Of a DNA stretch of 64,000 nucleotides, positions 9,365-58,224 are shown in pieces. The position numbers were made by a program, and so were the translations under genes. This DNA comes from Eublepharis macularius (lineage: Eukaryota > Chordata > Lepidosauria > Squamata > Eublepharidae). The stretch is taken from NCBI RefSeq assembly GCF_028583425.1, contig NC_072805.1, positions 17,308,001 to 17,372,000 on the forward strand, in the 5' to 3' direction. Within the stretch, counting starts at the first letter, position 1; each line of letters opens with the position of its first letter. Under the pieces are notes generated by a model. It made no database searches. It was not told the DNA's origin and saw only the letters and a program-made list of their open reading frames with translations.

Positions 9365-9440
9365 TTCTCCTTTCTCTGTTTTATTTATTTATTTGTGTTC
9401 TTTCTCGTCTGCCTTTCTGATGGCGGCTCAAGGTGGATTG
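9365..9440 (-). repeat. LINE 3' tail fragment
   Basis: The minus strand ends GCAATCCACCTTGAGCCGCC, then AGAAAGGCAGACGAGAAAG and AAATAAATAAATAAA. Confidence 0.55.
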
Positions 9441-9499
9441 CATAATGTAAGACAATACAATCAGTAGGATGAGGAGACATCTAATAAACAATGGGATTG

Positions 9500-9690: not shown

Positions 9691-9829
9691 TGTTAGGCGA
9701 GGCAAGAAATGGTATTACCTAAGTAGAAATATAATGCAGTCACAGCAAGATGAAAACATACAGCAACAGATAATACATAAGACTCTACAGAACATCAGAA
9801 CTGCTTTGCTGGATCAGACCAATCTATCC

Positions 9830-10145: not shown

Positions 10146-10234
10146 CTCAGAAGCAAGTCATGTATGACAAAATGTCACGTATGTCATACATAAACAGTGT
10201 AAGAAATCAGCTCACATTGTGTTTATACGCCTAG

Positions 10235-10960: not shown

Positions 10961-11079
10961 GACCATGGACTGGGCAATTAGCCATAGTTTCATTGCGCAT
11001 ACAGCAAATGTACACACAGCAAAATATTCCTGTGTGTGCTGTCATCATGTTCTTGGAAAGAGATAAAAATGTACTGGAG

Positions 11080-11238
11080 TAAGGACCAGGGAAACCAGGA
11101 TTCAAATCTGTCCATGAAGTTCACCTGATGAACTTGGGCTGACCACTGTCTACCTAACCTACCTCACAAAGTTGTTGCGAGGATAAAATGTGGGGGTCAT
11201 GTGTACTTCCCTGAGCTCATTGGACGAAGAACAAAGTT
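11080..11238 (+). repeat. MIR-like SINE
   Basis: GGATTCAAATCTGTCC, ACTTGGGCTGACCACTG and ACCTCACAAAGTTGTTGCGAGG, then GATAAAATG. Opposite strand to most other copies here. Confidence 0.65.
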
Positions 11239-12004
11239 AAAAACCTAACAACCACATGAAACTATCTTATGGGAGACTAACGACTAATGACTCTTAACTG
11301 GTAATCACTTTCCAGGGCCTTGTGAAGAGAAAAGTCTTTCTCAAGTCTTTTTAATTTCTAAGCAAGTTTACATAGCATTGCAGCATTATTTGTCACCACA
11401 CCAGAACATCATCAAAGCAAGGGACCCTTCTCACTGACCGTAGCGTTTTAGGTTTTCAGCGATCAAATAAGGGAATATTTACAGACTGTGCTCAGTTCTG
11501 TATCTGTGTGTATTCTTTTGTGCAGCATGGGTGAAAATCTCAAACAAATAAATATCCGTGAGGAATCAGTAACTAAAAATTAGCATTGGCATTTTTATAT
11601 CCTTAAACCTGACCGAACTTGTCAAGACCTCGTTAATGTGGGCGTTACATTTGGTCTTGCCTCAAACCTAAAAGTAAGCCCAACTACAAGTAACCTGGAT
11701 TTGCACAAATCCCTGTTCCTTGTCTTTCTATTTCTGCCTTCTGTTCTCTCTGCCAAATTTTTAATTCTAAGTTCCCTAGATACAAGAAGAAACTAGTTTC
11801 CCCCTGAATTAATATTATTACACTTTAAAGAACCATGCACATAAATGGTATTACAAGAATCCTGTAACCTTTAGTTGTTTCAGCATCAACTGAGAAGTGT
11901 ATTTTATTTCTGGGGAAACATGTTCTAGCTCAAACAACCATAAAGATAGACAAATTATTACTGTTTCACTCATCACTTGGGGAAAGGTCATGGCTTATGT
12001 ATGT

Positions 12005-22741: not shown

Positions 22742-22990
22742 AGGAGGACTGCCCTGACCTGGATAGCCCAGGTGAGCCTGATCTCGGCAGATCTCAGAAG
22801 CTAAGCAGGGTTGGCCTTGGTTAGTAATTGGATGGGAGACTTCCAAGGAAGACCAGGGTTGCAGAGACAGGCAATGCCAAACTATCTCTGTTAGTTTCTT
22901 GCCATGAAAACCCCTCCAGAGGTCGCCATAAGTCTGCTTTGACTTGAGGGCACCACACACACACAAACACACACACACACACAAAGGAGG
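22742..22990 (+). repeat. 5S-rRNA-derived SINE with CA-repeat tail
   Basis: GCCTGATCTCGGCAGATCTCAG, AAGCTAAGCAGGGTTGG and AATTGGATGGGAGAC follow the internal promoter region of 5S rRNA. The body then reads AGGCAATGCCAAACTATCTC, and a (CA)n tract ends it near 22985. Best preserved 5S SINE in the window. Confidence 0.85.
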
Positions 22991-32452: not shown

Positions 32453-32724
32453 TCATGCCAAAGGGCTGCACTTGCTGGCAGACAAAACAGCCACAACAGT
32501 TTGGGCAGCTCTCTCCCCAAGTCCTAGGCAAGTGTCCAGCAAAGCACGCGCCCGACTGGTCACAGTGGGGAACGAAGTGATTGTTTCATAGTCCTTCTTG
32601 GATAAGATCTGCCGGGAGCGCAGGACGTCCAAGATGTGGTTCAGGCGCCCTTCCGTCATAAAGCTCAAGATGGTTTCTCGCCCACAAGCCAGGATGGTAC
32701 AGCAGCTTCCTTGGCAGCACAGAT
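32453..32724 (-). CDS. RIPK2-like exon 11 (C-terminal CARD, stop codon)
   Basis: Residues 432-521 and TGA at 32455-32453. Acceptor CTGTGCTTCAG. After a cysteine-rich entry (LCCQGSCC) the CARD runs from about ETILSFMTEGRLNHIL. Its helices match RIPK2's CARD in spacing: LNHILDVLRSRQILSKKDYE against LDALLSRDLIMKEDYE, and TSRARALLDTCLGLGERAA against TSKVRQLLDTTDIQGEEFA. CARDs of this type assemble by homotypic contact with NOD-type sensors. The 3' UTR continues below 32453; I found no convincing AATAAA on this strand in the next few hundred bases. Confidence 0.93.
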
Positions 32725-35700
32725 CTGAAGCACAGAGGAATATAATGAACCTTTCCTACACTTTTTGGGGTCAAACACTCACCCCATTCCCCTGCAGCCA
32801 TACCACTGTATTCCACATATTGCTGCATAAATAAAATGGGGCAATTCTGACTTGTTTCTGCCCAGTTTTTTTAATTGAGGGTTTCATTAAGAGGGCACTG
32901 GAGTAGGGTCAAGCTACAAGTGACGAATGACACTTGCCTGGCAAGTGAACAGACTCACGTGTATTCCTCTCTGTTCACTTGCACTCCACTTGCATTCCAC
33001 TCGATCAAGTGAATGGCAAGTGAACAGGGAGGAATACGCTTGAGTCTGTTCACTTGCCAGGCAAGTGTCATTCGTCACTTGTAGCTTGACCCTTAGAGCC
33101 AAGCTACAAGTGACGAATGACACTTGAATGGCAAGTGAACAGACTCACATGTATTCCTCTCTGTTCACCTGCACTCCACTCAATCCACTCTACATGATCA
33201 AGTGGAGTGCACGTGGAGTGCAAGTGAACAGGGAGGAATACACGTGAGTCTGTTCACTTGCCGTTCAAGTGTCATTCGTCACTTGTAGCTTGGCCCTCAG
33301 ACTTCAATTAAGATAGTGGGGTGTGTACAAGAGAGAATGAAGCTGTAAATCAAAGTTCCTAGGAGGTTTAAATTATGGAAATTCTTGTTTAAAAACACAG
33401 CAGATGTTTTATGTTGATGCAACTATCAAAGTATGGCGAAATTAACCAATTAGGGTGTTTTTTTAAAAAATTGTACTCCTAGGAGACCTAAAAGTAGAAT
33501 CCTCAGAGGTATTAACACTGGTGATGTCAATAGACACCATAAATAACACTCCTGTACAACTGGATTTCACGGCTATAACACAATCCTTAATACAATTTCA
33601 TACTTTTATATAACTTGAATGACCGCAACTAAAGTAATCGAGCTTCTTAAAGGACAAGTGGGATAAAAAGTGGGAGATTTCATTTTTCTTTCGAAGTGAT
33701 AAAATTGTGGTTTATATGAATCTATCATCTGATCTGTAAAATGTTGGATTCATTCAGAGGTCCTAGCAGTGAGAAAAAAATTAGTAGATGGTTATTCTCA
33801 GATATGCCACACAAGCATAGAAATTGCTACTGGGCATAAGAGATACTCTCTCTCCCCCCGCCCCCAGGCTTGAACAAAGACTTGGGTTTTCTCACTCACT
33901 ACAGATGTTAATAGTTTAGCATGATCCCCCCTCCCTAAACACTGCTGTTAATTAGTTCTGCTTATTTTGTTTCACACTGTGCTTTCCTTGACTAGATTTA
34001 ATTAACTGATTTCTCTTTGACTGGTTTTGTTTCAAACTGGCCTCTTTGTAACATCTCCCACCACCTGTCCATTTGTTGCTCGTAATTGTATGTATAGATA
34101 AGTACTGAGGATGTACACTCCAATGCATCAGATGAAATGAGCTCTTTCTCACAAAATGTTGGGATGATTTTCATTAGTCTTTAAGGTACCATTAGACTTC
34201 ATTTTTATTGTGTTGCTTCAGATTAACACAGCTACCCATCTGGCATCAATATCAGAAGCAGCTAGAAGTTTTCACAGTTCAATAACATGTTTGTTTACTT
34301 GGAAGTAAACCCTACTCAGTTCAATCAGACTTGCTTCCAAGTCTGCACAGGACTGCAGCTTCCGCTGGTTCTCCAGCTACGTTTAAAAGCGAAACCAATT
34401 TGTCGTTGGCCATTTCCACACGACTTACCGGCTAATGAAACGTTCCGCAAAACACCCAGAAGATAGCGTCTTCTCACGCAAAGTTGCGCCAGGAAGACGC
34501 TACTTCACACAAAACTCCTGGAGGAAAGTGTCTTCCTGGCGCGATTTCGTGCAAGAAGACGCTATCTTCCGGGTGTTTTGCAGAACATTTTGTCGGCCAG
34601 TAAGTCGTGTGGAAACGGCCATTGTTCCTGTGACTTGGCTCTTTCATTTTGAATGAAGGTTCTGGATCTTATTACTTGGACCTAGTTTCAGGTGGGTAGC
34701 CATGTTGATGTGCAGTAGAATAGCAAAAATTGAATCCAGGAGCACCTTGAAGACCAACAAGATTTTCAGAGTATAAACTTTTGAGAGTCAAAGCTTCCTT
34801 TGTCAGATACCGCATGTATCTGACGAAGGGAGCTTTGACTCTCGAAAACCTGTACCCTAAAAATCTCGTTGGTATTTAAGGTGCTCCTGGACTTGAATCT
34901 TACTTGGACTGAATAGCCCATTCTCCCCCACAAGCTGTATTGCTTATTTCTCTAGCACAAACCACAGCAAATCAGTAATAGGTGGCAGTTCAGGATGGAT
35001 TGATTCGAAACAGGGTTGGCTCTTCCCAATGAATGGCTTTTTAAAATTCATCTGTGAATCGACATTCAGGCCAGGTGCTGGAAAAGTTACCTTGGGAAGG
35101 GCTGTGGTGGGGTCCCTGCAGAGGAGGTGGCTGCTGCCAACCTTCTGACTTCCTGCGAGAGGGAAAGTTGACTTTTTTACTTGGATCCGGTGTAAGAAGA
35201 GTGGGTAACGAACGGCGAGGGTTTGATCCTTTGCTGCTGCCAGCTGGCTGACCTGCAGAAATTAGTTCAAGAACTGAATTGCAACAAAAAACTGGAACCA
35301 GGTAAAGATCAGCAAACCACACAGAATCTCCAATGAGTCTAGAGACTGCTTCCTTTAACTAAAACACTGTGCTGTCATTAGATCTTCTTCCTGAGTGAAG
35401 TGGCAAGAGCTTTTTCACAGAATCAGCTGCCCATGTAATATTTTTAAGATGCTTGTTTATAAATGATTTTGGAAAAAAGTAGAAGCGTTCAAAGGCATTC
35501 AGAATCAATACCAATCCAATACAGCAACTTGTATTTATTGTCTCTACTTTACTTTTCTCTTCAAAGTAGTTCATAACATTGTTCTCCCCTCCTCCATTTT
35601 ATCCTCACAACAATCCTATGAGGTAGGCAGGACTGAGAGTAACTGGCCCAAGATCACCCAGTGAACATCTGTGACAAAATGGGGATTCAAACCCAAGTCT

Positions 35701-38700: not shown

Positions 38701-41700
38701 CCCTACTCATTGCTGTGCATATCTTTCCAATTGCTGTGCATATCTTTCCAACCTCTCTGCAAACAGAAGCAGATGGCAAAGGCTCCCAACTATGGCATCA
38801 CAGACATGAAAGCAGGAGCATGTTCAAAGAGCCAGCTGGGATGTATGGAGCCCTGCTCACAAACCTTAAGCACAGCTGTCTTGTAGCCAACAGGCACTTT
38901 GGCAAGCTATGCGGAAGGATGCAGTTTTGATCCTTCACACGTGCAGGGATGGAAACGCATTACTCTGTGCCTTAAAAAGAAGGGGAGCATTTACAGAGGA
39001 GAAATAGGGTGCGGAAGGAGGGAGTCCTTATTCCTTGCCAATTCTTCCCCCCAAATCCCCTCCCAATGTTGTTTTCCCTCCAACTGAGGGCCAAGCTACA
39101 AGTGACAAATGACACTTGAACAGCAAGTGAACAGACTCACGTGTATTCCTCCCTGTTCACTACGTGATCAAGTGGAGCACAAGTGGACAGGGAGGAATAC
39201 ACGTGAGCAGGGGTTATTTCGTAGAAAAAGCTGGAGGAACTCATTAGCATAACTCATTAGCATATGCCACGCCTCTTGCCATTGCCGGAAGTGTGTCATT
39301 AGTATAACTGATTTGCATATGCCACACCCCCTGACATCAGCTATTCTGCCTGTTTTGGACCCAATCCTGGTCATTCAGGGCCGAAATTGGGTCAGTGTGA
39401 CCTCATCAGACATAAGGGTAATTTTAAATAGTAATTTAAAGATTAATTTTGAAAAGTTTCTCATGAACTACTGGGCATTAGCAAAAGGGAATTCTGTCTA
39501 AGTATGGATGTTGGAGCATGACTGGCAAGTGGGATATGAACTAAGTGAACCCTGAATTGGCCACTTATTGACATTTGGGAACCAGAGATGCACACGGAGA
39601 AGGGAGGGGAAAAGACAGTTAATAATAATACCTTTTTCCAAGGTTATATTAGGAAGGGTGGCGAATGGTATCTGCTTAACGACCTTTTCTTGCCTGTGTG
39701 TGTCGCTTTCAAGGTGGGTGCCTGGCAAGCATTCTGGTTTCAGAGTAATCTGTTTGGTGGGCCTGTTGTGGTTCTGGGGATGAATTGCCTGCAACAAAGA
39801 GGGAAACCTACAATTATTTAATATAACAGCAGCAGCAATGTTGGTCTTGCCCTGATGCAGCGATACCGTGGACTTTGGGGCAAGCGTATGTTCCACCCCC
39901 TCACTCCCATTTCCCCTTGATTAAGAAACAAAATTGAGTCCGGCAATCCCATTAAGCTGTTTGTTATTATATCCGGCTGGGAAAGAATGCATTTGTTCCT
40001 ATCTCAAATGTTGAGTTGTTCAATCATTACCCCCCCACACACACACCCAATTTCTTTATTAATGATTTCAACATCTGCTTTCCGTATTTTTTTTTTTGCC
40101 TTGAACCTGAAAACAGATGACAAAAATTCCTTTTTATCCAAACACCATGGCCCTTTTCACACTACTTACCAGGACGCGCAACGACACGGAACATCGCGCT
40201 ACAAATGCGGAAAATCACATTTTCTCACGTGAGATTTGCACGACATCGCGCGAGATTTGCATGATGTCGAGAAAATCTCGCACGAGAAAATGCAATTTTC
40301 CGCATTTGTAGCACGATGTTCCGCGTCGTTGCGCGTCCCAGTAAGTAATGTGAAAAGGGCCAATGACAGGCTACCCAAGAGAAACCCCCAAGTAATGTAA
40401 AACTATGCTGACATCCACGTCACATCTCCCCCTATAGAACAACCATATTCCAACATTCTTACAACAAGGCATACTTCTAAGACTTCCCAGGAAAAATGAG
40501 AACCCAGTTCTGTCTGTGTCCACAAGTAAACATATATTTTGGTCTCTGGCAATACCAGCCTTAGCAGACAGCAGCCCCGTACTCTGGGAGAACGTCTCAA
40601 ACCAAGTGAACATGCTCACCTCCAAATTGCGCAAATCTGTTTCAAGCCCATGAGAAACCGGGCTTTTTGCAGCATCTGTAGCACAGTCCTGGAAAAGAGA
40701 AGCATAGCATGAAAACGCCTGTCACTAAAAAGGGCAAACATTTACAAGGGTATCACAGCAAGAAAATGGACCCGAGTCAACTGCCAGGAATACCTGATTC
40801 TTTCAAGGAATTCGGGGGCAGGGGAGGAATCCATGACGTGGTCAGCCATGCAAAGTTTATGTTTAAGCCACTTCACATATTAGTTTTCAGTCTTGGGAGA
40901 ATTCCATAGCATATGAACCAACAGTCAGCAGGGAAAAAACCCAGCACAGGTATTGGGGTGGTGGGGCCCATCTGTCCCATTTTCCTTCCCTCAATGTCTT
41001 CTGTTCACACCTTCGTATGAGAAGAACCTTTCTCTGCCCATTTTTAAATCTCTCACACTTCTACCCAACCTCTCCTCCAAAGGCGTTCAAGGCGATTTAC
41101 ATGGTCCCCTCTTCCTCCAGTTTATTCTTACAACAACCCGAAGAGGCAAACTGGGCTGAGAGAGATGACTTCTCAGTTGCTACACTTGAATGTGCATACG
41201 AGGAGAGAGAAGACATGCAATCCTTCCGATATGCACAATCCCCATTTTTTTTTAAGTGCCTGAAAATCTGAACTCAGAAAAATCTGGTTACTGATAACAC
41301 ATGTACCAAAGCTGAAAAGATGCACCCTTTCAGACAAAATGGCTACTGCGTGTATGGGTGGATTGCTTGAAGCACACGTGAGTTGGTGGACTCTCAGAAC
41401 ACATTATCATAATGAGTGAAGAGGGATAGAATGACTGGCCCAAGCTCACCCACAAAGCTTTATAACCGAGGGGGAGACTTGAACCCAGTTTATCCTTTAA
41501 ACCACTACCCCATACTGGCCTTTGTCTTCCTGTGGCTTCAACAGCAACCAGGGAGGAGGAAAGAAAGGGAGAAACCAAGCTTGACAATGTTCTTAGAAAC
41601 CACCTACTTCCTCTGCTGACCACTTTCCTGTTGAGCAGGAAAGGATAAAGAAATAACCCATGAAAAAGGGGGCGGCAGATAGGCACACTGTTGCTGATTA

Positions 41701-47700: not shown

Positions 47701-50700
47701 AGGCACAGGAAGGCCACAGAAAGCTGGTCATGCAGGCTAGCTAAGTTCAAGATCGGCACTAGTTCCAAGGACGAGCCAAGCCTTTCCAGTGCTTCCAAGC
47801 CCAGATGTTTAGCCCTTTCTCCATATGCGTGAAGGGAGATACTCCCAAGAAGAAGCCACCCAATCTGATGAAGGCCCAATTGATGTGTTAGGTTGCAGGG
47901 TGCTTCAGCATTTCCCTGAGGATGCTATTCAAGGTCAAAGCAGTAGAGGAAGGCCATCATCCGAAGCTCAGGAACCTGCCTTCCACAAGACCCCCAAGCA
48001 AACAGCCAGCAAGATTTAGTGCAGTGGGTTGCTCTGGACTTTGGTGACACATAAAAAGAAAGCGCACATACGTGCAATGGGCATACCCTGTAATTCCTTT
48101 GATGGGATTCAGCCATACATCTGCAGCTGATCATTAAATAGCCCTGTCACGTCTAGTGTAAGGAAAGGGCAAAGAGGAAAAAAAAGGAGGGGTGACCAAG
48201 AAAGAACTGAACTCTGGACGAAAAAGCAGGAGACAGCAAGGTCAAACCTACAGGCAAACAGAGGGAGTGTAAGCCTAGTTCTGGAGGTGTGAGAAGATTT
48301 ATCTAGGACTCCAGATTTGGAAACAGGTAACAGCTCATACCTGAAGGGGTGGAGGTCACGGCAGCTCCAGCTGCAAACCGATATTCTCCTGTAGGATCAG
48401 GTTGCAGTTTAAGCCTGGGGACGGAGTGCAATGAATTCTAGCCACAATCAAGTTGCTCGCTGTCAAGATCCTGGATTCTCTCCAACAGGGACCCTAAGCA
48501 GCTTACAACTTTCTCCCCTCCTCCATTTTATGCTCACGCCAACCCTGTGAGGTAGCTTAGGCTGAAAGAGAGTGACTGCCCCAAGGTCACCCAGCAAACT
48601 CCCATGGCAGAAGGAGGGGGATTTGAACTTGGGTCGCCCAGATCTTAGTTTAACAATGATTCCATGCTGGCTCTTATGACTACCTTCTGCTAAGCTATAA
48701 GATCATACCCTCGATTAGGAATAAGACTCCGTTCTCTTGTATTCTGCGCATTTTAATCGCCTTGTTACTGAACCTATAAACATGCTGCTTGTTGATACGC
48801 ATTACTGATGGACTAAGAGAGCTGCGTAGCTAGGATTACGCCTCCTGAAATCTTGTGGTATTTAGAAAGCTTTGAGAGCTTATGTGTATGACTGGATTTC
48901 CCCTTGTTTGATTACTCAACAATGGACGGATGGCAGTTAAAAAGTGTGAACTGACACGGCTGCAAAGCACAGTTTTGCACGGGATGTAAAGGCGTAGACA
49001 CATGGGAAAATCAGGCTCAGAAAAAGAAGATCAAAAGAAAAGCTACAATATGGACAGCCCATGTGAGCTACTGCCTCTACGTGCCGTATTTCAATGGCTT
49101 TGAAATGGATTGAACTAGCATGATTTCTTGTATAGAATTCTAGGAACTGTCATTTTTGGACAGAGCAATGTTTTGAGATGCCTCTCTGGTTATCTGTCAC
49201 AGGCACAACAACGTATTGGTCCCTTTTCACCCCAAAACTGAACTACAGCAGGGCACATTTGAAAAAGATCAGGAATATTTCCAAAGACGCTCCTTCTGGT
49301 CCTAGAAGCACGACTATCGTCAGGAAAGTACCAAGCCAGAAAGAAACAAGAACAGACACAACCACAGGATTACATAAAAGTTCTATTAGGGGGAAAACGA
49401 AAGGAAAAGACTAGAAATGGAACACAGATGCCTACCTTCCAACGGCTTCTGTCTGCTTATGGTTTCCCAACACATCATTCCAAAGCTAAGCAAAAATATC
49501 AGGGGGAAAAGATGTATTACTTTGGAGTCGCTGCTATCTCAACTAGCAAATTCACAAGTCTAAGGTGCCGTTTCCATAACATACATTTCTCTTTACTGAC
49601 AGCCTTTCTATTCTGAATATTTGGGAACAAGTACTTTGGGCCCTTTGCTCCAAGGCTTTTACAGCTTTCCTGATATCAAATGTCATCTTTCTCCCCAAAT
49701 TTCCTCTTTTGGCAGAAACTCAAGGCAACCTGTATTCTTGTTCTAGTTGGGCAAACAACAGCTTGGGAGGGTTGACAGGGAAGATATAGACCACTGCCCT
49801 GCCTGCCGCAACATACATCCAAGCCACATTCCCTAGTTAGCAATAACAATGCTCTGGAAATCTGTTCACAGATCTTTCAGCATCTGGCTTGACTCTCAAA
49901 GTCCAGATGTTGAGTAATTTGCCCAAGGCCAGGGGGACCCCAACATGGTGCCCGTGGGCACCATGGCACCTCCTGGCAGCTTTCCTGGCACCCGCTGAGT
50001 GTTTTCAGAAAGTGAGTGGGGCCAGTTTGGGCTTTTGCTCAGCAGGGCTTCTGATTGGCCACCAGAAATCTGTCATATTGCCAGATGGTTGTTTCTTAGC
50101 TAAGTTAATAAGTATACTTGTGCTCGCGAATATTTTATCTGGTCTCCATCTTCTGTCTGATTTTGATAAACTAAATTTTATACTTTCAGATACAGACCCT
50201 TTTATTTTGAACAAGATGGCCCTCTATGCCCCGGCTGCTAGGAAAATAAGGGCAAATGTGGCAACCAGGAAGGAGAGTAAACATCTGATATATTTATTTT
50301 ATTTATTTTATTTATTTATTCAATTTATATACCGCCCATCCCAGGGGCTCTGGGCGGTGAACAGTTAAAATTGATAAAAACAAAAACTAAAATCAATATA
50401 CAAATAATAAAACAAATTAACAAGGTGCAGTGGTGGGGAGAACCTTCCCCACCCCAAAGGTGGGAGGCCGACATGGCACCGCCCCCTTCAATCACCAAAC
50501 GCCTGGCGGAACAGCTCTGTCTTACAGGCCCGGCGGAACGATAATATGTCCCGCTGGGCCCGGGTTTCCATTGACAGAGCGTTCCACCAGGCTGGGGCCA
50601 GGACTGAAAAAGCCCTGGCCCTGGTTGAAGCCAGGCGGGCTTCCTTAGGGCCGGGGACCACAAGTAAATATTTATTCGCTGATTGGAGCGATCTCCGGGG

Positions 50701-53700
50701 AACGTACAGGGAGAGGCGGTCCCGAAGATATGCCGGTCCCAACCCACTCAGGGCTTTAAAGGTAAGAACCAACACTTTGAACCTGATTCGGAATTCAACT
50801 GGAAGCCAGTGCAGCTGGCGCAGGACAGGTGTGATGTGTGACTGGTAAGGTATACCAGTCAGGACCCGTGCCGCCGCATTCTGGACCAGTTGTAGTTTCC
50901 GGATCAGGCCCAGGGGTAGCCCAGCGTAGAGTGAGTTACAGTAATCTAGCCTGGAGGTGACCGTTGCATGGATCACTGTAGCCAGGTCCTGGGGCGTCAG
51001 GTAGGGGGCAAGTTGCCTGATCTGACGAAGATGGAAAAATGCAGACTTGGCAACCGCCGTGACCTGGGCCTCCATCGATAGGGAGGCATCCAGGAACACA
51101 CCCAGACTCTTTACCACTGGCAAAGTTGCCAGTGGTGTCCCATCCAGGGCAGGGAGCTGGATCCCAACATCTGGCAGCCCCCGTCCCAGCTGCAGGACCT
51201 CCGTCTTCACTGGGTTCAATTTCAGCCTGCTCTGTTTCAACCATGCCGTCACAGCCTCCAAAGCTCTGGCCAGATTGTCTGGGGCCGTATCTGGCCGGCC
51301 GTCCATCAACAGAAAAAGTTGGGTGTCATCCGCGTATTGATGACAACCCAGCCCAAACCTCCGCACCAACTGGGCGAGGGGGCGCATATAGATGTTAAAT
51401 AACATTGGGGAGAGTATCGCCCCTTGGGGAACCCCGCACACCAAAGGGTGACGGGCCGATAGATCTCCCCCGAGCGCCACCCTCTGTCCCCGACCCTGGA
51501 GAAAGGAGACCAGCCACTGTAAGACTGTCCCCCTAATCCCCACGTTGGCAAGGCGGCTGGCCAACAAATCATAGTCAACCGTGTCAAACGCTGCTGTGAG
51601 ATCAAGTAACACAAGCAGCGCTGACCCGCCTCGATCCAGATGCCTGCGAAGGTCGTCTGTGAGGGCAACCAAGGCTGTCTCCGTCCCATGGCCAGGACGG
51701 AAGCCAGACTGGAATGGGTCCAGGACTAGAGCATCATTCAGGAATTCCTGCAGTTGTACCGCCACTGCCCACTCAATCACCTTGCCCAGGAACGGGAGGT
51801 TCGACACTGGGCGGTAACTGGACGGGGCGGTGGGGTCCAAAGATGGTTTTTTCAGGAGGGGCCGCACTACCGCCTCCTTTAACACTCCTGGAAAAACCCC
51901 AGAGCTCAGGGAGATGTTAACAATGGCCTCCAGATGGTCCCGTAGCCCCTCTGAGCTGGCCTTCACCAGCCAGGATGGGCAGGGGTCCAGAGGACAGGTG
52001 GTTGGCCTCATCCCCTGCAGGATCCTGTCAACATCGTCCTGAGAGAGCAGGCTGAAATGGTCTAATACGGACCCAGAAGACGGCCAAGGGGTCTCTAGTT
52101 CCCTTACTGTATCAACAGTGGGTGGCAGGCCACGGCGAAGGGACAAGATTTTACCCGCAAAATAGCTCGCAAAAGCCTCGCAGCCAATAGTTGAATTAAG
52201 AATTTGGTGGTCTCCCTGAGAGAGGGAGACCAAGGACCGAACTGTTTGAAATAATTGAGCCGGGCGTGAGCTAGCGGATGCAATGGAAGCAGCAAAGAAA
52301 TCCCTCTTTGCTGCTTTCACTGCCACCTCATAGGCTTTCATAAACGTCCTATAAGATGTTCTTGCCTCTTCGTCGCGCCCCCGCCTCCACACTTGCTCTA
52401 GTCGTCTCAGAGACCGCTTCATCTGGCGAAGCTCCTCGGTAAACCAAGGAGCTACCCGTTTGCGGGCTCGGAGAGGACGGCAGGGGGCAATAGCGTCGAT
52501 GGCTTCGGAAAGACGGCCATGCCAATCATCCACCAGCTCATCTAACGTACTGCCAGGGGGCATCGGATCCCGCAGAGCCACCTGGAAACCAATTGGATCC
52601 ATAAGCCTCCGCGGGCGAGCGTAAATCCGCTCACCGCCCACCCGGGAAAGGAGCGGCATGCTCAGACGAGCCTTCAGAACAAAGTGATCTGACCATGGCA
52701 CTGCATCATAGGCATCCAGGACCACCATCACCCCTGCCCCAAAAATCAAATCCAGCGTGTGACCTGCTTGATGCGTGGGAGCCGAAACAAACTGGGAGAG
52801 TCCTAGGGCCGCCATGGAGGACACCAGGTCAATGGCCTGCATGGAGGCATCGTCGTCAGCATGGACGTTGAAATCCCCGAGATCCCCGATTGTCTTATAA
52901 GCTGCTGGAAATTATTTGGTTTTAATGTTGTTAACTTTTACATTTTAGGCAAAATGCATTTTATAATAATTTTATTTATATGTATGTAATTATATCTGTA
53001 TTCTTGTATTTTTTTTTGCTTTTAATGGTTTTGGATTGTATATTGTATATGCCTATGGCCATATACAATGAATTCATTCAAGTTGGTATACTTGTGTTTA
53101 TGAAATAACCATATGTTCATTTGGAAAAGTATCCTGTTAAACAGTGCTTCTGTTGGAAATACTGAAGAGCTACAGTCAAGAGTTATGTCTAACCACACCC
53201 TCTGATGTTTTGTGGTTGGCTCCGCCTCCTGTGGTAGCCATTTTGTGGTTGCACCCACCACTCTGTGTCAGATTTCAGGCTCAAAACACTGGGGATCCCG
53301 ACCAAAGATCTTGGTGAACTGCTGCCAGTAGGAATAGATAGGACGAACATCCCTGCACTTTGAGACATTATAAGGCAGCGTCATCTACCAGAAAAATGGC
53401 AATATGAAAGCCCTATTCAAGCCTGGAAGTATCAGCTGACGAAATTCTGCTTGGAAAGAGGGAGAAAAAAATGGCTCACCTGTAAATATCACTTTCTTGA
53501 GAGAAGTTGCCTCCTTGGAGTATTTCAGGGGAGAGGTAAAGCAAATCCCAACAACTTTTGTTGCAGTTCTGTAGGTCAGACATCAATTGCTGCCTTCGCC
53601 AGGTGGGGAAGCCATAATCTGATACCTGGAATCGAGGAAGGAAGGAACCACTTTAAGGTATAAAGCACGCCTTGGCCAAGCCCTTCTGTGTATTTTAATG

Positions 53701-56700
53701 CTTGTTACATCATCTTCTTGAAGCTTTCTTTTAAATGCATTTAATTCTAAGCTAGAAGGCAATGGGGGAGGGTGGCACTTTTACAAACCCTACCTTAGCT
53801 CTGTACTCAAGATCTAGGAGGACATTGGAAGGTTTCAGGCTGCGGTGAAGGATGGGGGGCTCCAAACTGTGTAGATGGCTGAGGCCTTCTGCTACATCTG
53901 TCAGGATCCTCATGCACAAAGGAAGAGGCAGATCCGGATAGAGTTCATGCTAAAAAAAATAAAAATCCAAATAACACAATCGTTTCATTCTTAGACTATT
54001 CTTGATTTCTATCCCGCCTTATCCCAAAAGGTTTATTGTGAATTTGGAAGCTAAGCAAGGTTAGTACTTGGATGGGAGAGCACCAAGGAAGCCCAGAGTC
54101 GCTACGCAAAGGAAGGCAATGGCAAAACACCTTTGCTCATCTCTTGCCTGGAATGCTCCATGGATGGGGTCACCACAAATTGGTCGTGACTTGAAAGCTT
54201 GAACAGTTATAGCTTGAGCTCGTCAGAGCTTGGAAGCTAAGAAGAGTCCACCCTGTTTAGTACTTGGATGGGAGACCACCAAGGAAGTCCAGGGTTGCTA
54301 TGCAGGGGCAGGCAATGGCAAACCACCTCTGCTCATCTCTTGCCCTGAAAACCCCATGAGGGGTTGTGACTTGACAACACTTTATTATTATTATTAATTA
54401 TAAGGTCATTGGAAAATAACGCATACTGTAAAAATACTAAATTTAATAATCTGACTGAAAAATGTAACAGCCTTTGGTCATATACAATGATTTTTTACTT
54501 AAAGGTAAAGGTGCAAGCACCGAGTCATTACTGACCCATGCGGGGGACGTCGCATGATGATATTTTCTTGGCAGACTTTTTGTTACGGGGTGGTTTGCCG
54601 TTGCCTTCCCCAGTCACCTTCCCCAACTGAAAAAGAACTCAGTAGGCCCCACCTCAATTATCTGCATAAGAAATTGCTCTCCCTTTTGCATACCTCATGG
54701 ATGAGGGCATGGAGTGATCCGTTGTGCATCCATTCAGTAACCACCCCGAGAAGTCCTTGGAACTGGTAGATGCCAATGGAAGGCATGAGTCTTTCACAAT
54801 GAATCTGCTGGATGCCAGCTACCTCTTCAAGCAGTGCCTTCAGGTCTCTGAAAACACATTCATAATTACAGGCAGTGATTTCATTCACAATGACTGCTTT
54901 AAATGAAATGAGGAAGACTGGGACTACGGAAAGGAAAGGGGAACTATGTGGTCCTCTACTGGTAGGTTCATCGTGGCTCGCTCAGCCACTTTCCTCCAGG
55001 GCTGAGCTCGACTGTTTTTGTTTGCACAATCAAGGCCAGAGTCAGCACATGGTGAGGTGGGGCCCGTGGCTTTGGGTGCGGTCTGCTGGTGCTGACTCCC
55101 TCCCTACTCATGCGTCTCCTCAGATGCTGCCATTCACACCCTTTCCATTGCCTGTCTGTGAGTGCTTTGTTCCAGCTGCATATGCTGCCTAGTGCTACTG
55201 GAGAAGGGCATGTGGGTGGTGCATAAAGCGTCAGCATTCCTGGTGGCCACGGCAGTGGCACCCACCACCCAGCACCACCAGGGAAAGCTGTGTCTGCAGT
55301 GGTGGGACATCTTGCAAACGGGCAAAGGAAGGCCCCACAGGCAGGTGGGGGTAAGTGAGTGAGACGGAGTTCCCAGGTGCCCGTGGGTGGCGGGCAAACT
55401 CCCAGAGGTTTGCCCCATTGCCCATTGATCTGCCAGTATTTGGTAGGAGCTGGCAAGCCACCGGAGGTTGCCCACCACTAGCAGGCACTCTGGGAACACG
55501 AGCACTGTGCACACTCCTGCGGGGCATGACGATGTCACTTCCTGAAATGACATGGTTGCGCAGGCCGCAGGTGTGCTTCTGCACTTTGCTGGGGCCGATT
55601 GCGGCCCCAAACAGGCAAGAATTAGCCCCACACAAAGGGCAGGAGCATGCTGGAGTTCAGTGTGATGATGTCATTTCCCAGAAGTGACATCATCACACAC
55701 GTGCTGGGAGTGCGCACGTACAGGGAGGTTAAGTGGACCTGATAACCCTAGAGTGGGATGTCAAGAAGGGGAGGCCAGCAGTGGGCCTAAGCCGCCCCCT
55801 CCAGAACTAGAACTGGTCCCGTGTACAAGACAAGGGGCAAGTACCTTCTCTTGGACTCTGAGGTCATGTGGGAAGGGCTGACAAGGCCTAGATCAAGTAA
55901 TAGCAATGCTGGAGGTTTCCCAAGGCCCCAGAATGACAAAAAGCCCCCAAAGCCCCAAAAGTATCAATGCCAACATCAGGAGAAGGCCTTGTCCTCTATG
56001 CCCTTTTGGTTGAGCCTCCCGGGCAACAGACCGGCCACTGCATGAGTCAGGATGCTGGACTAAATGGATCCCTTGTCTGATCCTATAGGGCTCTTCTTAC
56101 GTTATGCAGTTTTTGTCCACATGATTTTTGCACCATCTCCAGCATAGCCTTTTCGGTAGCTGAAAGAGGTCCCTCCTCCTCCTTTCATCAGCAGAAGGGT
56201 TCTTATAATCCAACTCAAAGGTTTTAAAATAGAGGAGAAACCAGGGATTTTTTTCAGCTGGAATGCGGTGGAACGGAGTTCCGGAACCTCTTGAAAATGG
56301 TCACATGGCCGGTGGCCCCGCCCCCTGATCTCCAGGCAGAGGGGAGTTGAGATTGCCCTCCGCGTTGTGCAGCACGGAGGGCAATCTAAACTCCCCTCTG
56401 TCTGGAAATCAGGGGACGGGGCCACTGGCCATGTGACCATTTTTGCCGAGGGCAATTTAAACTTTAAAAAACAACCCCCCCCCTTGTTCCAGCTGACCCA
56501 AAGTGACGTCATTGTGCGGTCCTGAGTTCCACCACTGAGTTCCACAACCTCTTTTCCCAGGAAAAAAAAGCCCTGGGAGAAACCAATGGTAAAGCAATGC
56601 TTGGTGAGTAAAAAGTTATAGGTTCAGTTCCTAATATCACCAGTTTAGTAATCTTAGAAAACTTGGCAGAGAACAACTGTTTCCTGCTCAAGACCAATTC

Positions 56701-58061
56701 CATGTTCAAGACCTGGAAAGCCATTCATTTCCAGCCAGCATAAACCATTCTAGGCCAGATGGACCAATGGTCTCTCTCAATATAGTGCAGTTTCTTATGT
56801 TAAATACACAAAGCTGCTAACAGTTCTCCTATACTTCTGCTTATAGCATTGGTCCCCAAAGTGGTACCCATGGGAGCCACAGGACCAGCCGACACCTTTC
56901 CTGGTGCCCGTCAAGTATCTTTCAAAAGTGGCTGAAGACGGGTGAGGCTTTTGCCAAGCATGGCTTCTGATTAGCCATTGAGCTGTGCAGATATATTCCA
57001 TATCCAATTTATACAGCCTCACTTGAACAGGAAAAGAGGGAAAATAAGAGGAGGGACGTGTTCGATGAAGACTGCTTTCTCCCTTCCTCTCTCATAACGC
57101 TTGGCAGGGCTTTTTTTCAGCTGAAACACGGTGGAACGGAGTTCCGGAACCTCTTGAAAATGGTCACATGGCTGGTGGCCCCGCCCCCTGATCTCTAGAC
57201 AGAGGGGAATCCGAGCGGAGCAGAGGGCAATCTCAACTCCCCTCAGTCTGGAGATCAGGGGGCGGGGCCACCGGCCATGTGACCATTTTCTCCTAGGGCA
57301 ACCCACTGAGTTCCACCACCTCTTTTCCCAGAAAAAAATCCCTGATGCTTAGGTATGGTCAAAGGTTCGGCACAAGCTGAATGGCAAGAGTAAAAGGGCT
57401 CTTAGTACCATAGCTTGCACCACCTGTGACTTCAAACAAACCAGGCAAGGAATCCAGGACTTCCCTGAGATGTATTCGTTTTGATTTTGTATGCTTGACT
57501 GTTTGATCTGCAGTGGTTTACTTAGGCATTTTTCTTGCAAATCATTTTAGTCCTTCTTTGGAGAAAAGCAGGATATAAATACTTAAATAAATTTTGTGTA
57601 TGCTCCCACCAATAAAAATCAAGTTTCAACCCTAACGCTTGCCCTGGAGCAGGAACATGGTGGTCTTAGATACAGTAGTGAGACTATAAACAAGACTTGG
57701 AAGCACTGCTTGCTGGGAGATGAAGTAGGGTAGGGCAGAAAACAGGAGATCTGGCCAGGGCCTAGGCTGACATTGAGGCAGCAGTTGTTACGCCTGTTTA
57801 AGACCACCAATAAACCTACTTTGGGATATAAATTGTATTCAGTTGCTTGATACAAGGAGCCGCTGCCATTTATTTGTCACCCCCCTCCCGCCTCTCCCCA
57901 GAGGCTCACCTGTCTGTTGGGTTCTTGCAAGTCAACAGCTTCAAGATGACATCCGTGTTCCGAGGTGTGTGGAAAGCTTTGAGAATGAAGCCAGAACCTG
58001 TCCTGGTTAGGGCGATACTCTCCAGATCCTCTGGGGAAACGATGGGTACCCGACTGGACAT
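32453..58061 (-). CDS. RIPK2-like CARD protein with a degenerate kinase domain (11 exons, 521 aa)
   Basis: Coding exons in transcript order: 58061-57910, 54847-54694, 53949-53794, 53625-53480, 49485-49436, 44913-44752, 43330-43245, 40688-40620, 39788-39632, 35252-35091, 32724-32453. Every junction is AG/GT and the phases join without a break (1566 nt including TGA). Residues about 8-275 form a kinase-like domain: glycine loop remnant TGSGF (21-25), VAIK-type lysine K41 in VILK, alpha-C Glu E59, HRS (137-139), N144, DYG (157-159), SPE (186-188) and SDIYSFG (about 200-205). Residues about 300-430 are a polar, proline-rich linker and about 445-520 a CARD. Human RIPK2 has the same order, 11 exons and 540 aa. 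RIPK2 relays NOD1/NOD2 signals by CARD-CARD filaments and ubiquitin scaffolding. By inference this protein acts in the same cytosolic pathway as a scaffold or decoy. Loss of the catalytic Asp argues against phosphotransfer. RIPK2-like paralogue is favoured over a diverged RIPK2 orthologue. Confidence 0.9.
32906..33092. mobile_element. Foldback MITE, GGGCCAAGCTAC family, first of an adjacent pair
   Basis: From GGGTCAAGCTACAAGTGACG to CGTCACTTGTAGCTTGACCC, with arms AATGACACTTGCCTGGCAAG. It lies in intron 10, about 180 bases upstream of the CARD exon. Confidence 0.82.
33096..33297. mobile_element. Foldback MITE, GGGCCAAGCTAC family, second of an adjacent pair
   Basis: From GAGCCAAGCTACAAGTGACG to CGTCACTTGTAGCTTGGCCCTC. 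Only TTA separates it from the copy at 32906-33092, so one copy either landed in the other's target site or both came from a tandem duplication. Confidence 0.82.
33300..34129 (-). other. Intron 10 of the RIPK2-like gene, no repeat recognised
   Basis: AT-rich DNA; no conserved block could be picked out. Confidence 0.5.
34130..34252 (+). repeat. Dispersed repeat (TAGTCTTTAAGGTACC family)
   Basis: TTTTCATTAGTCTTTAAGG, CATTAGACTTCATTTTTATTG and TTAACACAGCTACCCATCTG. Confidence 0.5.
34408..34620. mobile_element. Foldback MITE, GGCCGTTTCCACAC family
   Basis: 213-bp imperfect palindrome, GGCCATTTCCACACGACTTAC to GTAAGTCGTGTGGAAACGGCC, with the inner repeat AGAAGACGCTATCTTC. Flanks GTT and ATT. Same length as the 26964 copy but a different interior. 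Confidence 0.82.
34687..34905. repeat. Two dispersed-repeat copies head to head
   Basis: AGGAGCACCTTGAAGACC and TGAGAGTCAAAGCTTCC are followed by the inverse GGGAGCTTTGACTCTCG and TTAAGGTGCTCCTGGAC. The junction near 34807 (CAGATACCGCATGTATCTG) makes a 200-bp palindrome. Confidence 0.6.
35091..35252 (-). CDS. RIPK2-like exon 10 (proline- and serine-rich linker)
   Basis: Residues 378-431, 162 nt, acceptor TTTCTGCAG and donor CCAAG/GTAAC. In frame it reads GQPAGSSKGSNPRRSLPT and ends PPPLQGPHHSPSQ. A second frame of the exon is also free of stops over all 54 codons, but only the chosen frame joins exon 11 in phase. Confidence 0.85.
35530..35707 (-). repeat. MIR-like SINE
   Basis: ATCCTCACAACAATCCTATGAG, AACTGGCCCAAGATCACCC and GGGGATTCAAACCCAAGTC. 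It lies 280 bases upstream of exon 10. Confidence 0.7.
35708..35795 (+). repeat. Dispersed repeat (TTAGTCTTATAGGTGC family)
   Basis: TTTTGTTAGTCTTATAGG, TACTGGACTCTTGC and CTAGCACAGCTACCCATG. Directly joined to the MIR-like SINE. Confidence 0.5.
36180..36919 (-). mobile_element. L1 LINE ORF1 remnant
   Basis: The reading starts at 36919 (MGKQMSKKKKHQVKAVKNF), has a leucine-rich heptad stretch near 36560-36720, and continues with RNVKFRGF and FPRDIIATFQD, typical of the L1 ORF1 RNA-binding domain. In-frame stops after TPLSQ and after FMKDY, plus a frame change, show that it is dead. A reptile L1 fragment in intron 9. Confidence 0.75.
38367..38607. mobile_element. hAT MITE, CAGGGCTTTTTTT family, perfect 8-bp duplication
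   Basis: Reference copy, 241 bp. It starts CAGGGCTTTTTTTCTGG and ends AAAAAAAGCCCTG, and is flanked by GCTCTTTG on both sides (38359-38366 and 38608-38615). The interior is a near palindrome built on GGTCACATGGCTGGTGGCC and CCCCTGATCTCCAGACAGAG. Confidence 0.88.
38707..38751 (+). repeat. Tandem duplication, two units of 21 bp
   Basis: TTGCTGTGCATATCTTTCCAA is present twice back to back with no change seen. Confidence 0.85.
39086..39205. mobile_element. Foldback MITE, GGGCCAAGCTAC family, right arm lost
   Basis: Starts GAGGGCCAAGCTACAAGTGAC and keeps the central palindrome CACGTGTATTCCTCCCTG, but the sequence changes to the CAGGGGTTATTT element before the right arm completes. Confidence 0.75.
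39206..39420 (+). mobile_element. Probable hAT-type MITE fragment (CAGGGGTTATTTCGTAG end)
   Basis: Starts CAGGGGTTATTTCGTAG and has two tandem units of CATTAGCATATGCCAC / GATTTGCATATGCCAC, then TTTTGGACCCAATCCTGGTC. No right terminus was found. It abuts the foldback fragment at 39086-39205. Confidence 0.45.
39632..39788 (-). CDS. RIPK2-like exon 9 (linker)
   Basis: Residues 326-377 plus one base of G378, 157 nt. The acceptor follows a long pyrimidine tract (TTTCCCTCTTTGTTGCAG) and the donor is AAAG/GTATT. Polar and rich in Lys, His, Gln and Asn (begins AIHPQNHNRPTK), with no known fold. It is required by phase: it turns the phase-0 end of exon 8 into the phase-1 start of exon 10, which supports the exon independently of sequence similarity. 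Confidence 0.85.
40149..40361. mobile_element. Foldback MITE, GGCCGTTTCCACAC family
   Basis: 213 bp, GGCCCTTTTCACACTACTTAC to the inverse, interior arms AATGCGGAAAATCACATTTTC. Flanks CAT and AAT. It lies between exons 8 and 9 of the RIPK2-like gene. Confidence 0.82.
40620..40688 (-). CDS. RIPK2-like exon 8 (linker, 23 codons)
   Basis: Residues 303-325, 69 nt, phase 0 at both ends. Strong acceptor CTTTTCCAG and donor GGAG/GTGAG. Acidic and polar, beginning DCATDAAKSP. No recognised domain; it sits where RIPK2 has its poorly conserved intermediate region. Confidence 0.85.
41060..41500 (-). repeat. MIR-like SINE split by about 230 bases
   Basis: GGCGTTCAAGGCGATTTAC and TTCTTACAACAACCCG (to about 41170) are followed after unrelated DNA by GACTGGCCCAAGCTCACCC and GAGACTTGAACCCAG at 41431-41490. 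Confidence 0.55.
42470..42830 (+). repeat. LINE ORF2 C-terminal fragments split by another repeat
   Basis: CTAGACTACTGTAATGCTC is the RLDYCNAL region and GCTGGTGCAAAACGTCATAGC the VQNA region. After an insert at about 42605-42700 the text resumes with ACTCCATTGGCTGCACATC (LHWL). Confidence 0.7.
42835..43005. other. Isolated GC-rich block in intron 7
   Basis: About 170 bases rich in CpG, such as GCCGCCCGCCCGCTGCC, between a LINE fragment and a 5S SINE. No splice-flanked frame was found. It may be part of an unrecognised repeat. Confidence 0.4.
43008..43178 (+). repeat. 5S-rRNA-derived SINE, 5' part degraded
   Basis: AAGTAGGGTCGGTCACAGTC, CTTGAATGGGAGACCACC and GACGGCAAACCACCTCTGC, ending GTTGGCTGCAACTTGATGGC. 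Confidence 0.75.
43245..43330 (-). CDS. RIPK2-like exon 7 (helix after the kinase domain)
   Basis: Residues 274-302, 86 nt, CTCCCTACAG acceptor and CCAAG/GTGAGT donor. LQDVLGMFRKEMISDAIYSL corresponds in position to the helix [20 protein letters not shown] of RIPK2 that closes the kinase domain. Confidence 0.9.
43488..43640. mobile_element. Foldback MITE, GGCCGTTTCCACAC family, shorter copy
   Basis: 153 bp, GGCTGTTTCCACAAGGCTTAC to GTAAGCTGTGTGGAAATGGCC, inner arms AGAAAACAGCAAAATCTTGC. It lies about 160 bases upstream of exon 7. Confidence 0.8.
44035..44510 (+). repeat. L2/CR1-group LINE 3' end
   Basis: CCACCTTGTGGAATGGCCTATC (NSL region), then a 3' UTR ending TGTAATCCGCCTTGAGTC and AAAGCGGGCTATAAACAAAG. 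Related to the 4565-5105 copy. Confidence 0.7.
44752..44913 (-). CDS. RIPK2-like exon 6 (C-lobe end)
   Basis: Residues 220-274, 162 nt, TTCCCCAG acceptor and GCAG/GTATG donor. Contains GVRPGLDP, then IPCDLPHRSRLLQLIALCW and PSYRP. Human RIPK2 has YDIPHRARMISLIESGW and DERPS at the same places, including the invariant Arg of subdomain XI. Confidence 0.95.
45265..45370. mobile_element. Foldback MITE, GGGCCAAGCTAC family, with perfect TAA duplication
   Basis: 106 bp from GGGCCAAGCTAGAAGTGAC to CACTTCTAGCTTGGGCC, flanked by TAA at 45262-45264 and 45371-45373. A TWA duplication is the rule for PIF/Harbinger elements, which suggests that superfamily. Confidence 0.8.
45376..45430 (-). repeat. 5S-rRNA-derived SINE fragment
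   Basis: On the minus strand AAGGGTTAGCACTCGGATGG and GAGACCACCAAGGAAGTCC. It is cut off at the left arm of the large foldback element. Confidence 0.65.
45675..45909. mobile_element. Foldback element, variant of the AAGCTACAAGTGAC family
   Basis: The arms GAGCAGAACCACAAGTGAC and GTCACTTGTGGTTCTGCTC are exact inverted copies at the two ends. Inside, CAGCTTCCCTCAAGTTTTG is also found inverted. Related to the element at 61293-61455. It sits inside the loop of the larger foldback element. Confidence 0.75.
45979..46521 (-). mobile_element. L1 LINE 3' fragment (ORF2 C-terminus and 3' UTR) with 18-bp target duplication
   Basis: The minus-strand frame at 46251-46547 reads LYFITAARVLYAKKWK and EEWLTKVLEFVSMAKLTALI, the C-terminal end of L1 ORF2. 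An A-rich 3' UTR runs down to 45979. The same 18 bases (cccctgtggagctgttct) stand at 45961-45978 and 46522-46539. This perfect duplication marks a recent, strongly 5'-truncated insertion. Confidence 0.88.
46659..48340 (-). other. Intron 5 of the RIPK2-like gene, mostly unassigned
   Basis: Many 60-120 codon frames on both strands without domains. No repeat family was recognised in this part. Confidence 0.5.
48341..48388 (-). other. Possible 48-nt cassette exon in intron 5 of the RIPK2-like gene
   Basis: A good acceptor (CTGATCCTACAG) and donor (TTCAG/GTATGAG) flank 48 nt that are open in the required phase (1 to 1) and would add EYRFAAGAAVTSTPSG between exons 5 and 6. Skipping it gives the shorter product, which fits RIPK2 without a gap. 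It lies at the helix F-G loop of the kinase fold. Either a cassette exon or chance. Confidence 0.3.
48485..48670 (-). repeat. MIR-like SINE
   Basis: ACGCCAACCCTGTGAGG, GTGACTGCCCCAAGGTCACC, GGGGGATTTGAACTTGGG and CATGCTGGCTCTTATG. Confidence 0.7.
49436..49485 (-). CDS. RIPK2-like exon 5 (helix F, 50 nt)
   Basis: Short exon coding S203 to the first base of G220: FGMMCWETISRQKPLE. RIPK2 has the equivalent YAVITWEVLSRKQPFE. The acceptor is TTTGCTTAG and the donor GGAAG/GTAGG. It is in phase with exon 4 across a 4-kb intron that contains the LINE at 50285-52895. Confidence 0.93.
49930..53300 (+). mobile_element. hAT-like MITE of the CAGGGG family, split by the LINE
   Basis: The left part (49930 to about 50080) has CAGGGG, the phrase CTGGCACCCGCTGAG and a GTGGGGCC block. 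The right part (about 53190-53300) has twin GCCATTTTGTGGTT units and ends ACTGGGGATCCCG. The undivided copy at 30465-30875 has the same order, so the LINE and other DNA between them entered later. Confidence 0.6.
50285..52895 (-). mobile_element. CR1/L2-group LINE, 5'-truncated, long intact ORF
   Basis: An open frame of about 800 codons runs from about 52890 to the stop at 50488. It begins inside the endonuclease with GDFNVH, then THQAGHTLDLIFG and SDHFVLKARL. The reverse transcriptase follows: FQSGFRPGHGTETAL, LLDLTAAFDTVDYDLL, GVPQGAILSP and YADDTQLFLL, then LVQNAAARVLTG near the C-terminus. These motifs place it in the CR1/L2/L3 group of LINEs. It lacks the N-terminal part of ORF2 and any ORF1. 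The 3' end on this strand finishes in ATAAA-type repeats near 50285. The uninterrupted frame suggests a young insertion. It lies in intron 4 of the RIPK2-like gene, in the same orientation. Confidence 0.93.
53480..53625 (-). CDS. RIPK2-like exon 4 (DYG, activation segment, SPE)
   Basis: Residues 155-202 plus two bases of S203, 146 nt, GATTCCAG acceptor and ACAG/GTGAG donor. It opens with VSDYGFPTW, aligned with IADFGLSKW of RIPK2, so the metal-binding Asp157 is present but Phe is replaced by Tyr. The activation segment is short and cysteine-rich (NCNKSCW). LYLSPEIL matches the IYMPPENY region of RIPK2, and the exon ends in ESDIY, which precedes helix F. Confidence 0.93.
53794..53949 (-). CDS. 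RIPK2-like exon 3 (catalytic loop, HRS)
   Basis: Residues 103-154, exactly 52 codons, TTTTTTTAG acceptor and AAG/GTAGG donor. YPDLPLPLCMRIL matches the YPDVAWPLRFRIL stretch of RIPK2, followed by LSHLHSLEPPILHRSLKPSN. The catalytic-loop Asp is replaced by Ser139 (codon AGC, two changes from GAC), while Lys141 and Asn144 are kept. The phosphotransfer base is therefore absent in this copy. Confidence 0.95.
54012..54210 (+). repeat. 5S-rRNA-derived SINE, first of two in tandem
   Basis: GGAAGCTAAGCAAGGTTAG and TACTTGGATGGGAGAGCACC, followed by the GGCAATGGCAAAACACC body and GGTCACCACAAATTGGTC. The 5' part of the 5S unit is missing. Confidence 0.8.
54215..54400 (+). repeat. 5S-rRNA-derived SINE, second of two in tandem
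   Basis: GAGCTCGTCAGAGCTTGG and AAGCTAAGAAGAG, then TACTTGGATGGGAGACCACC and the GGCAATGGCAAACCACC body. Ends in ACACTTTATTATTATTATTAA. Confidence 0.8.
54500..54632 (-). repeat. Sauria-type SINE, 3' part only
   Basis: Forward text AAAGGTAAAGGTGCAAGCACC, ACTGACCCATGCGGGGGACG and GGTGGTTTGCCGTTGCC match the tail half of the 23545-23868 copy. The tRNA head is missing. Confidence 0.72.
54694..54847 (-). CDS. RIPK2-like exon 2 (alpha-C to hinge)
   Basis: Residues 51-102, 154 nt, TTTTCAG acceptor and GAG/GTATG donor. It carries LLEEVAGI with the presumed alpha-C glutamate E59, and the strand that leads into the hinge, GVVTEWMHNGSL. The human RIPK2 hinge reads GIVTEYMPNGSL, one of the best matches in the gene. 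Confidence 0.93.
55440..55755. mobile_element. Relative of the 29704-30100 element
   Basis: Contains GGAGCTGGCAAGCC near the left, GATGTCACTTCC near 55530, GATTGCGGCCCCAAACAGG, and the inverted pair GATGATGTCATTTCC / GAAGTGACATCATCAC near 55663-55697. Long minus-strand frames here (54968-55635) follow composition, not coding. Confidence 0.45.
56242..56575. mobile_element. hAT MITE, CAGGGCTTTTTTT family, perfect 8-bp duplication
   Basis: Flanked by GGAGAAAC at 56234-56241 and 56576-56583. As in the 31293 copy, the interior carries an extra block with CAGCTGACCCAAAGTGACGTC, here on the right side, so these two are a long subfamily read in opposite directions. Confidence 0.87.
56848..56985. mobile_element. 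hAT-like MITE of the CAGGGG family, left half only
   Basis: GGTCCCCAAAGTGGTACCC, then ACCTTTCCTGGTGCCCGTC and a GGCTTCTGATTAGCC block, matching the left half of the 30465 copy. The right half is absent. Confidence 0.6.
57105..57344. mobile_element. hAT MITE, CAGGGCTTTTTTT family
   Basis: 240 bp, short subfamily. The flanking octamers ACGCTTGG and ATGCTTAG differ by two transitions, an aged target duplication. It lies about 530 bases from the copy at 56242. Confidence 0.83.
57478..57595 (+). repeat. LINE 3' tail
   Basis: GAGAAAAGCAGGATATAAATAC followed by TTAAATAAAT. It lies between exon 1 and the hAT MITE at 57105. Confidence 0.5.
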
Positions 58062-58085: not shown

Positions 58086-58224
58086 CTGAAAAAAAGAAGT
58101 TAAAAAAATTATCTCAGCTGCCTAGGTAGGCTTCACAGCCTCTCTCTTGGTTGCCCACTGCCACTCAGCAAGAGAGAAAAGTACCAAAAAAGTAGCATTG
58201 CTGCAATGAGACAACACCATTTCT

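Follow-up and report, generated by a model that had tools for sequence, protein, structure and literature searches.

The window analysed here is a stretch of 64,000 nucleotides from the genome of the gecko Eublepharis macularius (NC_072805.1, positions 17,308,001 to 17,372,000). A preliminary description read a RIPK2-like protein from its minus strand, a kinase domain followed by a CARD, with HRS in place of the catalytic HRD motif. The locus raises the question of what such a protein is, i.e. the RIPK2 of this species, a second RIPK2-type protein or the product of a decaying gene, and what it could do with the catalytic Asp missing. The locus is a real gene that very probably belongs to the RIPK2B group already described, the first reading of it being correct apart from the DFG motif.

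Gene structure and integrity of the frame

The gene was re-derived from the raw sequence. Eleven exons between positions 58061 and 32453 join into 1566 nt, which give 521 aa and a stop codon with no break in the frame, and all ten introns display GT-AG borders. The eleven-exon join proposed earlier is thus in phase throughout, and the ten introns rule out a processed copy. The exons are as follows:

57910..58061, minus strand, exon 1: aa 1–51; N-lobe, Gly-loop and K41
54694..54847, minus strand, exon 2: alpha-C Glu59 and hinge; phase and length (154 nt) equal to RIPK2 exon 2
53794..53949, minus strand, exon 3: catalytic loop HRSLKPSN, aa 137–144; phase and length (156 nt) equal to RIPK2 exon 3
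53480..53625, minus strand, exon 4: DYG, aa 157–159, and activation loop; 146 nt, RIPK2 exon 4 being 12 nt longer
49436..49485, minus strand, exon 5: alpha-F; length (50 nt) and phase equal in RIPK2
44752..44913, minus strand, exon 6: C-lobe; length (162 nt) and phase equal in RIPK2
43245..43330, minus strand, exon 7: end of the C-lobe; length (86 nt) and phase equal in RIPK2
40620..40688, minus strand, exon 8: linker
39632..39788, minus strand, exon 9: linker
35091..35252, minus strand, exon 10: linker
32453..32724, minus strand, exon 11: CARD and stop

An acceptor-like segment, TTTTTTTCAG, at 58086–58095 of the minus strand ends 24 nt before the ATG and the frame is open upstream of it; a further 5′ exon upstream of exon 1 is possible. 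Intron 4 contains an uninterrupted 807-aa retrotransposon frame (50488–52911, minus strand; RVT_1, 3.8e-36). Elsewhere in the window, a match to the 5S rRNA family at 22759–22865 on the plus strand scores 38.2 bits against a threshold of 38.0 and perhaps represents a 5S-derived repeat or pseudogene. Long overlapping open frames are found on both strands at about 8277–9445, and the G+C content is 0.487 in 8001–12000; this region resembles a CpG-island promoter. The one frame submitted to Pfam from this region, 8499–9119, shows no match.

The signs of a pseudogene (broken frame, broken splice sites, loss of introns) are absent over the 1566 nt and 10 introns. The preliminary description held that the intact frame implies selection. 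In a neutral simulation that allowed base changes only, with 2000 runs per level, the share of runs without a premature stop was 33% for 0.02 substitutions per site, 8% for 0.05 and 0.55% for 0.1, and none of the 2000 runs stayed open for 0.2. The open frame speaks against a long period of neutrality and is compatible with recent inactivation. A recently inactivated gene on its way to becoming a pseudogene would agree with the third of neutral runs still open at the lowest level, with the fast divergence of the protein (34% to human RIPK2 and the longest branch of the kinase tree described below), and with the finding of no AATAAA or ATTAAA within 1.8 kb of the stop. However, the gene shows no stop, frameshift or damaged splice site, and the change of Asp to Ser requires two substitutions. 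Decay of this kind appears improbable.

A second RIPK2-type gene in the gecko genome

A search of the 2.24-Gb gecko genome with the CARD exon, at E-values up to 1 and scoring best candidates only, yields two places, the window gene on chromosome C16 and a locus on C7. The C7 locus, of which exons 1–7 and the last exon were rebuilt, is a canonical RIPK2 with HHD and DFG motifs. Its kinase domain is identical to that of human RIPK2 at 235 of 307 positions (76.5%), whereas the window protein agrees with human RIPK2 at 102 of 297 (34.3%). That the window gene is the only RIPK2 of the species, misread as a paralogue, is refuted by the C7 gene and can be put aside with near certainty. The distinction from a true RIPK2 drawn in the preliminary description is borne out, which makes the window gene a paralogue.

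The two genes share domain order, CARD type and much of their architecture. The phases of introns 1–7 are equal (7/7), that of RIPK2 intron 7 being taken from the donor only, with exon 7 recognised among the open stretches of the RIPK2 locus. Exons 2, 3, 5, 6 and 7 have equal lengths (154, 156, 50, 162 and 86 nt) and the last exon begins in phase 1 in both genes. Intron 2 has no counterpart in the RIPK4 exon on C3, which is a continuous open frame at that point, hence this intron is common to both RIPK2 genes and not to RIPK4. A tblastn search of the RIPK2 locus with the tail and linker of the window protein (aa 271–432) gave no match, and RIPK2 exons 8–10 were not located.

In a kinase-only tree of six sequences the window protein has the longest branch (1.82) and takes no firm place within the RIPK2/RIPK4 group. 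The assignment to the RIPK2 type is made from the gene architecture and the CARD. A kinase exon at C12:68846192-68849461 with the sequence LHLDLKPSN shows 49% identity to the window protein over aa 83–174, more than the 42% of RIPK2 exon 3 over aa 102–156; this exon is presumably RIPK4/ANKK1-like. Orthologue scans were negative, with a single locus of 22 matched residues in viral contigs and a single Rhodococcus locus at 25% identity in genome contigs.

Relation to the published RIPK2B

A second RIPK2 paralogue, RIPK2B, with a kinase domain and a CARD, has been described by Fay et al. 2025 (PMC12119088) in many vertebrates and as lost in therians. A RIPK2-like gene adjoins OSGIN1 in chicken and zebra finch, with the true RIPK2 beside OSGIN2 (PMC10492769). 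Two RIPK2 sequences are listed for green anole, zebrafish and sea lamprey and one for chicken and frog (PMC9573974). The second anole sequence, XP_008112157.1, has 392 aa, 35.0% identity to human RIPK2 and no listed CARD; the second zebrafish sequence, XP_005166455.1, has 513 aa, 27.2% identity and a CARD at 424–503; that of sea lamprey has 34.5% identity and a listed DEATH domain (PMC9573974). We infer that the three papers all refer to one gene. The window gene resembles it in its kinase and CARD, in its occurrence as a second copy beside a true RIPK2 and in a similar identity to human RIPK2 (34.3% against 35.0% in the anole), and is in all likelihood RIPK2B. It is almost certainly neither a new family nor specific to reptiles. 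The suggestion that this is a dedicated reptile gene finds no support, RIPK2B being reported in many vertebrates (PMC12119088) and a second RIPK2 being listed for anole, zebrafish and lamprey (PMC9573974).

OSGIN2 starts 104 kb past the stop of the canonical RIPK2 on C7. OSGIN1 is found on C16, the chromosome of the window gene, but 4.65 Mb off, whereas it is adjacent to RIPK2B in the two birds, and a tblastn search for OSGIN1 in 114 kb around the window gene showed no match. MLYCD is likewise on C16, at 44.1 Mb, and a search for NECAB by family PF03992 gave no match.

The available text of PMC12119088, PMC10492769, PMC11747288 and PMC9573974 does not mention that the second RIPK2 lacks a catalytic residue. 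A lost XIAP site in RIPK2B is likewise unmentioned in the available text of PMC12119088, PMC10492769 and PMC9573974. The word pseudokinase does not occur in the main text of PMC12119088, and occurs once in PMC10492769, in a reference on MLKL.

Catalytic residues of the kinase domain

The window protein contains a Pfam kinase domain at aa 32–278 (2.7e-33). The best PDB match of exons 1–5 is the RIPK2 kinase (E = 1.9e-37), followed by RIPK3 (7.8e-31), RIPK4 (1.6e-24) and RIPK1 (6.8e-21). RIPK2 is also the best PDB match of the CARD, and the naming of the protein as RIPK2-like is upheld for both domains.

HRS occupies positions 137–139, so that the Asp of HRD is replaced by Ser, while Lys41, Glu59, Lys141, Asn144 and Asp157 are all kept; HRS, K41, E59 and N144 are thus where they had been placed originally. 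Among the catalytic residues checked, the HRD Asp is the only one lost. The absence of this one member of the Lys/Asp/Asp set, with the Lys and the DFG Asp present, makes the protein a candidate pseudokinase. Ser is encoded here by AGC, which is separated from either Asp codon (GAC, GAT) by two changes, thus the loss is explained neither by an error at one base in sequencing nor by a mutation in one step. An Asn at the HRD Asp in the RIPK4 crystal chain is uninformative on RIPK4, the C3 exon of the gecko genome having Asp.

Two other proposed defects do not hold. DYG at 157–159 was taken originally as a catalytic loss, but the metal-binding Asp157 and the Gly are retained, Phe to Tyr is the sole change, and DYG by itself does not point to an inactive kinase; the notion that DYG is dead was rejected. 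The Ala position of VAIK is Ile, and the idea that this residue blocks ATP was dropped because RIPK1 also carries Ile there (row MIMK, shifted by two columns). The Thr at position 47 in the same RIPK1 row is an artefact of the shift and uninformative on RIPK1.

Loss of the HRD Asp is not always fatal to phosphotransfer, as in HER3 and the JAK2 JH2 domain. A weakly active kinase with a modified catalytic loop would be consistent with retention of the VAIK Lys, alpha-C Glu, loop Lys and Asn, and DFG Asp, and with the Ile shared with RIPK1. It has against it the missing catalytic Asp, a Thr in place of the first Gly of the Gly-loop, Met in the alignment at the position of S176 and the 12 nt shorter exon 4, and is judged quite unlikely. 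From its residues the window protein is probably non-catalytic or nearly so.

The XIAP docking surface

Loss of catalysis need not silence a RIPK2. Human RIPK2 with the D146N substitution, a laboratory mutant (PDB 5NG2) changed at the same position as the Ser of HRS, still signals, while with R41L signalling is not fully restored (PMC6120666). RIPK2 depends on XIAP binding and CARD filaments. Since D146N still signals, and XIAP binding and CARD filaments are needed, the XIAP and CARD surfaces of the window protein were compared with those of RIPK2.

Mutation implicates R36, R41, N133, N137, K209, E279, S282 and K285 in binding of the XIAP BIR2 domain, N133 having been tested in a double mutant only and R36 and R41 possibly acting via dimerisation (PMC10485824). 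None of the eight is kept in the window protein; the canonical RIPK2 of the same genome keeps seven. The other kinases show 1/8 (RIPK3), 1/8 (RIPK1) and 2/6 of the positions covered (RIPK4). Given the overall identity of the window protein, a score of 0/8 has P = 0.033, and RIPK1 and RIPK3 score almost as low; P values for these interfaces, here and below, are nominal, uncorrected for multiple testing, and the counts are small. K209 lies beside a gap, and one alignment pairs it with the gap and another with Glu.

CARD and filament interfaces

Pfam places a CARD at aa 447–512 of the window protein (6.1e-10). The open frame of the last exon matches the RIPK2 CARD best in PDB (8.7e-12), then caspase-1 (2.8e-5), and the RIP2 CARD structures take the first 8 rows of the match list of its predicted structure (pLDDT 84.6, from an alignment of 2). 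The identity is 42% to the CARD of the genome's own RIPK2 and 32/72 positions to that of human RIPK2.

Filament interface residues were taken from PMC6255760 and PMC6168553; the lists overlap, D467, D495, K471, Q458 and E472 being named for more than one type. With the full residue sets, the window CARD keeps 8/12 residues of the type I surface (P = 0.084), 3/13 of type II (P = 0.078) and 6/10 of type III, where the genome's RIPK2 keeps 12/12, 11/13 and 10/10. A first choice of residues had given 7/9 for type I (P = 0.036), 3/11 for type II (P = 0.18) and 5/9 for type III. The contrast between a kept type I and a changed type II surface appears to be a lean and not proof.

Of importance among the changes are C455R and M470S. 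In human RIPK2, C455S and M470K both keep NOD2 binding and do not pass on the signal, the former producing irregular filaments and the latter none (PMC6168553). The genome's RIPK2 keeps C455 and has Leu at 470, hence position 470 varies. Both the window CARD and the genome's RIPK2 retain E453, on which filaments depend, and the window CARD also retains T452.

D146N shares with the window protein the loss of the same catalytic Asp and demonstrates that a catalytically dead RIPK2 can signal. D146N, however, is a single change with the XIAP site and CARD intact, whereas the window protein is altered at the XIAP site and at the type II surface of the CARD.

Proposed role

The preliminary description had suggested that the protein modulates NOD filaments or acts as a decoy, an idea compatible with the CARD pattern. 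As to the receptor, a NOD2 NACHT query of the gecko genome gives 11 matches, the best at 35% identity; this is compatible with the absence of NOD2 reported for reptiles (PMC12119088) and is not proof of it. The window protein would join NOD1-RIPK2 assemblies with its CARD, through the type I surface. It would not recruit XIAP, and with its altered type II surface it would add poorly to a growing filament. The outcome would be that NOD1-RIPK2 signalling is dampened or redirected, the protein acting as a brake or cap. This chain of steps is proposed tentatively and at less than even confidence, which was lowered since type I and type II differ less clearly with the full CARD residue sets.

ICEBERG reportedly acts as a CARD-only decoy, and its PDB title reads 'an inhibitor of interleukin-1beta generation'. 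The mode proposed here for the window protein is shared with decoys of the ICEBERG type in that a CARD joins without propagating. Those decoys consist of a CARD only, whereas the window protein has a full pseudokinase domain and its decoy action is putative.

The main rival explanation is that RIPK2B serves as a positive, XIAP-independent scaffold, in which the pseudokinase would bring in a different E3 ligase or an adaptor and the CARD would work with NOD1 or some other CARD receptor. The intact frame fits such a role, as do the signalling of catalytically dead RIPK2 (PMC6120666) and the distinct regulation suggested for RIPK2B (PMC12119088). But the known recruitment surface is gone, at 0/8 XIAP residues, and two type II filament residues are changed whose mutation stops signalling by human RIPK2. 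A positive scaffold is a real contender and, on these grounds, somewhat doubtful.

Taken as a whole, the explanation favoured, by a little over even chance, is that the window gene is RIPK2B, with a product that is probably non-catalytic and whose CARD may join NOD1-RIPK2 assemblies and restrain signalling. A broader proposal, which we regard as unlikely, is that RIPK2B is a natural pseudokinase throughout its lineage, with one RIPK2 copy the XIAP-using adaptor and the other, lost in therians, capping the CARD filaments of NOD1-RIPK2 or acting as a decoy for them.

Significance

The RIPK2B family is already known. Loss of the catalytic Asp, loss of the XIAP residues and the CARD pattern in the gecko copy were not met in the available text of PMC12119088, PMC10492769, PMC11747288 and PMC9573974, and no claim is made that they are unpublished. 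Drugs and engineered mutants have so far supplied the arguments on kinase versus scaffold in RIPK2. In an intact natural paralogue with neither the catalytic Asp nor the XIAP site, evolution has set the two roles apart, and the window protein thus offers a natural test of whether such a protein signals or restrains RIPK2. If it restrains, the lineages with RIPK2B would possess a means of braking NOD signalling that therians, laboratory mice and people among them, have lost.
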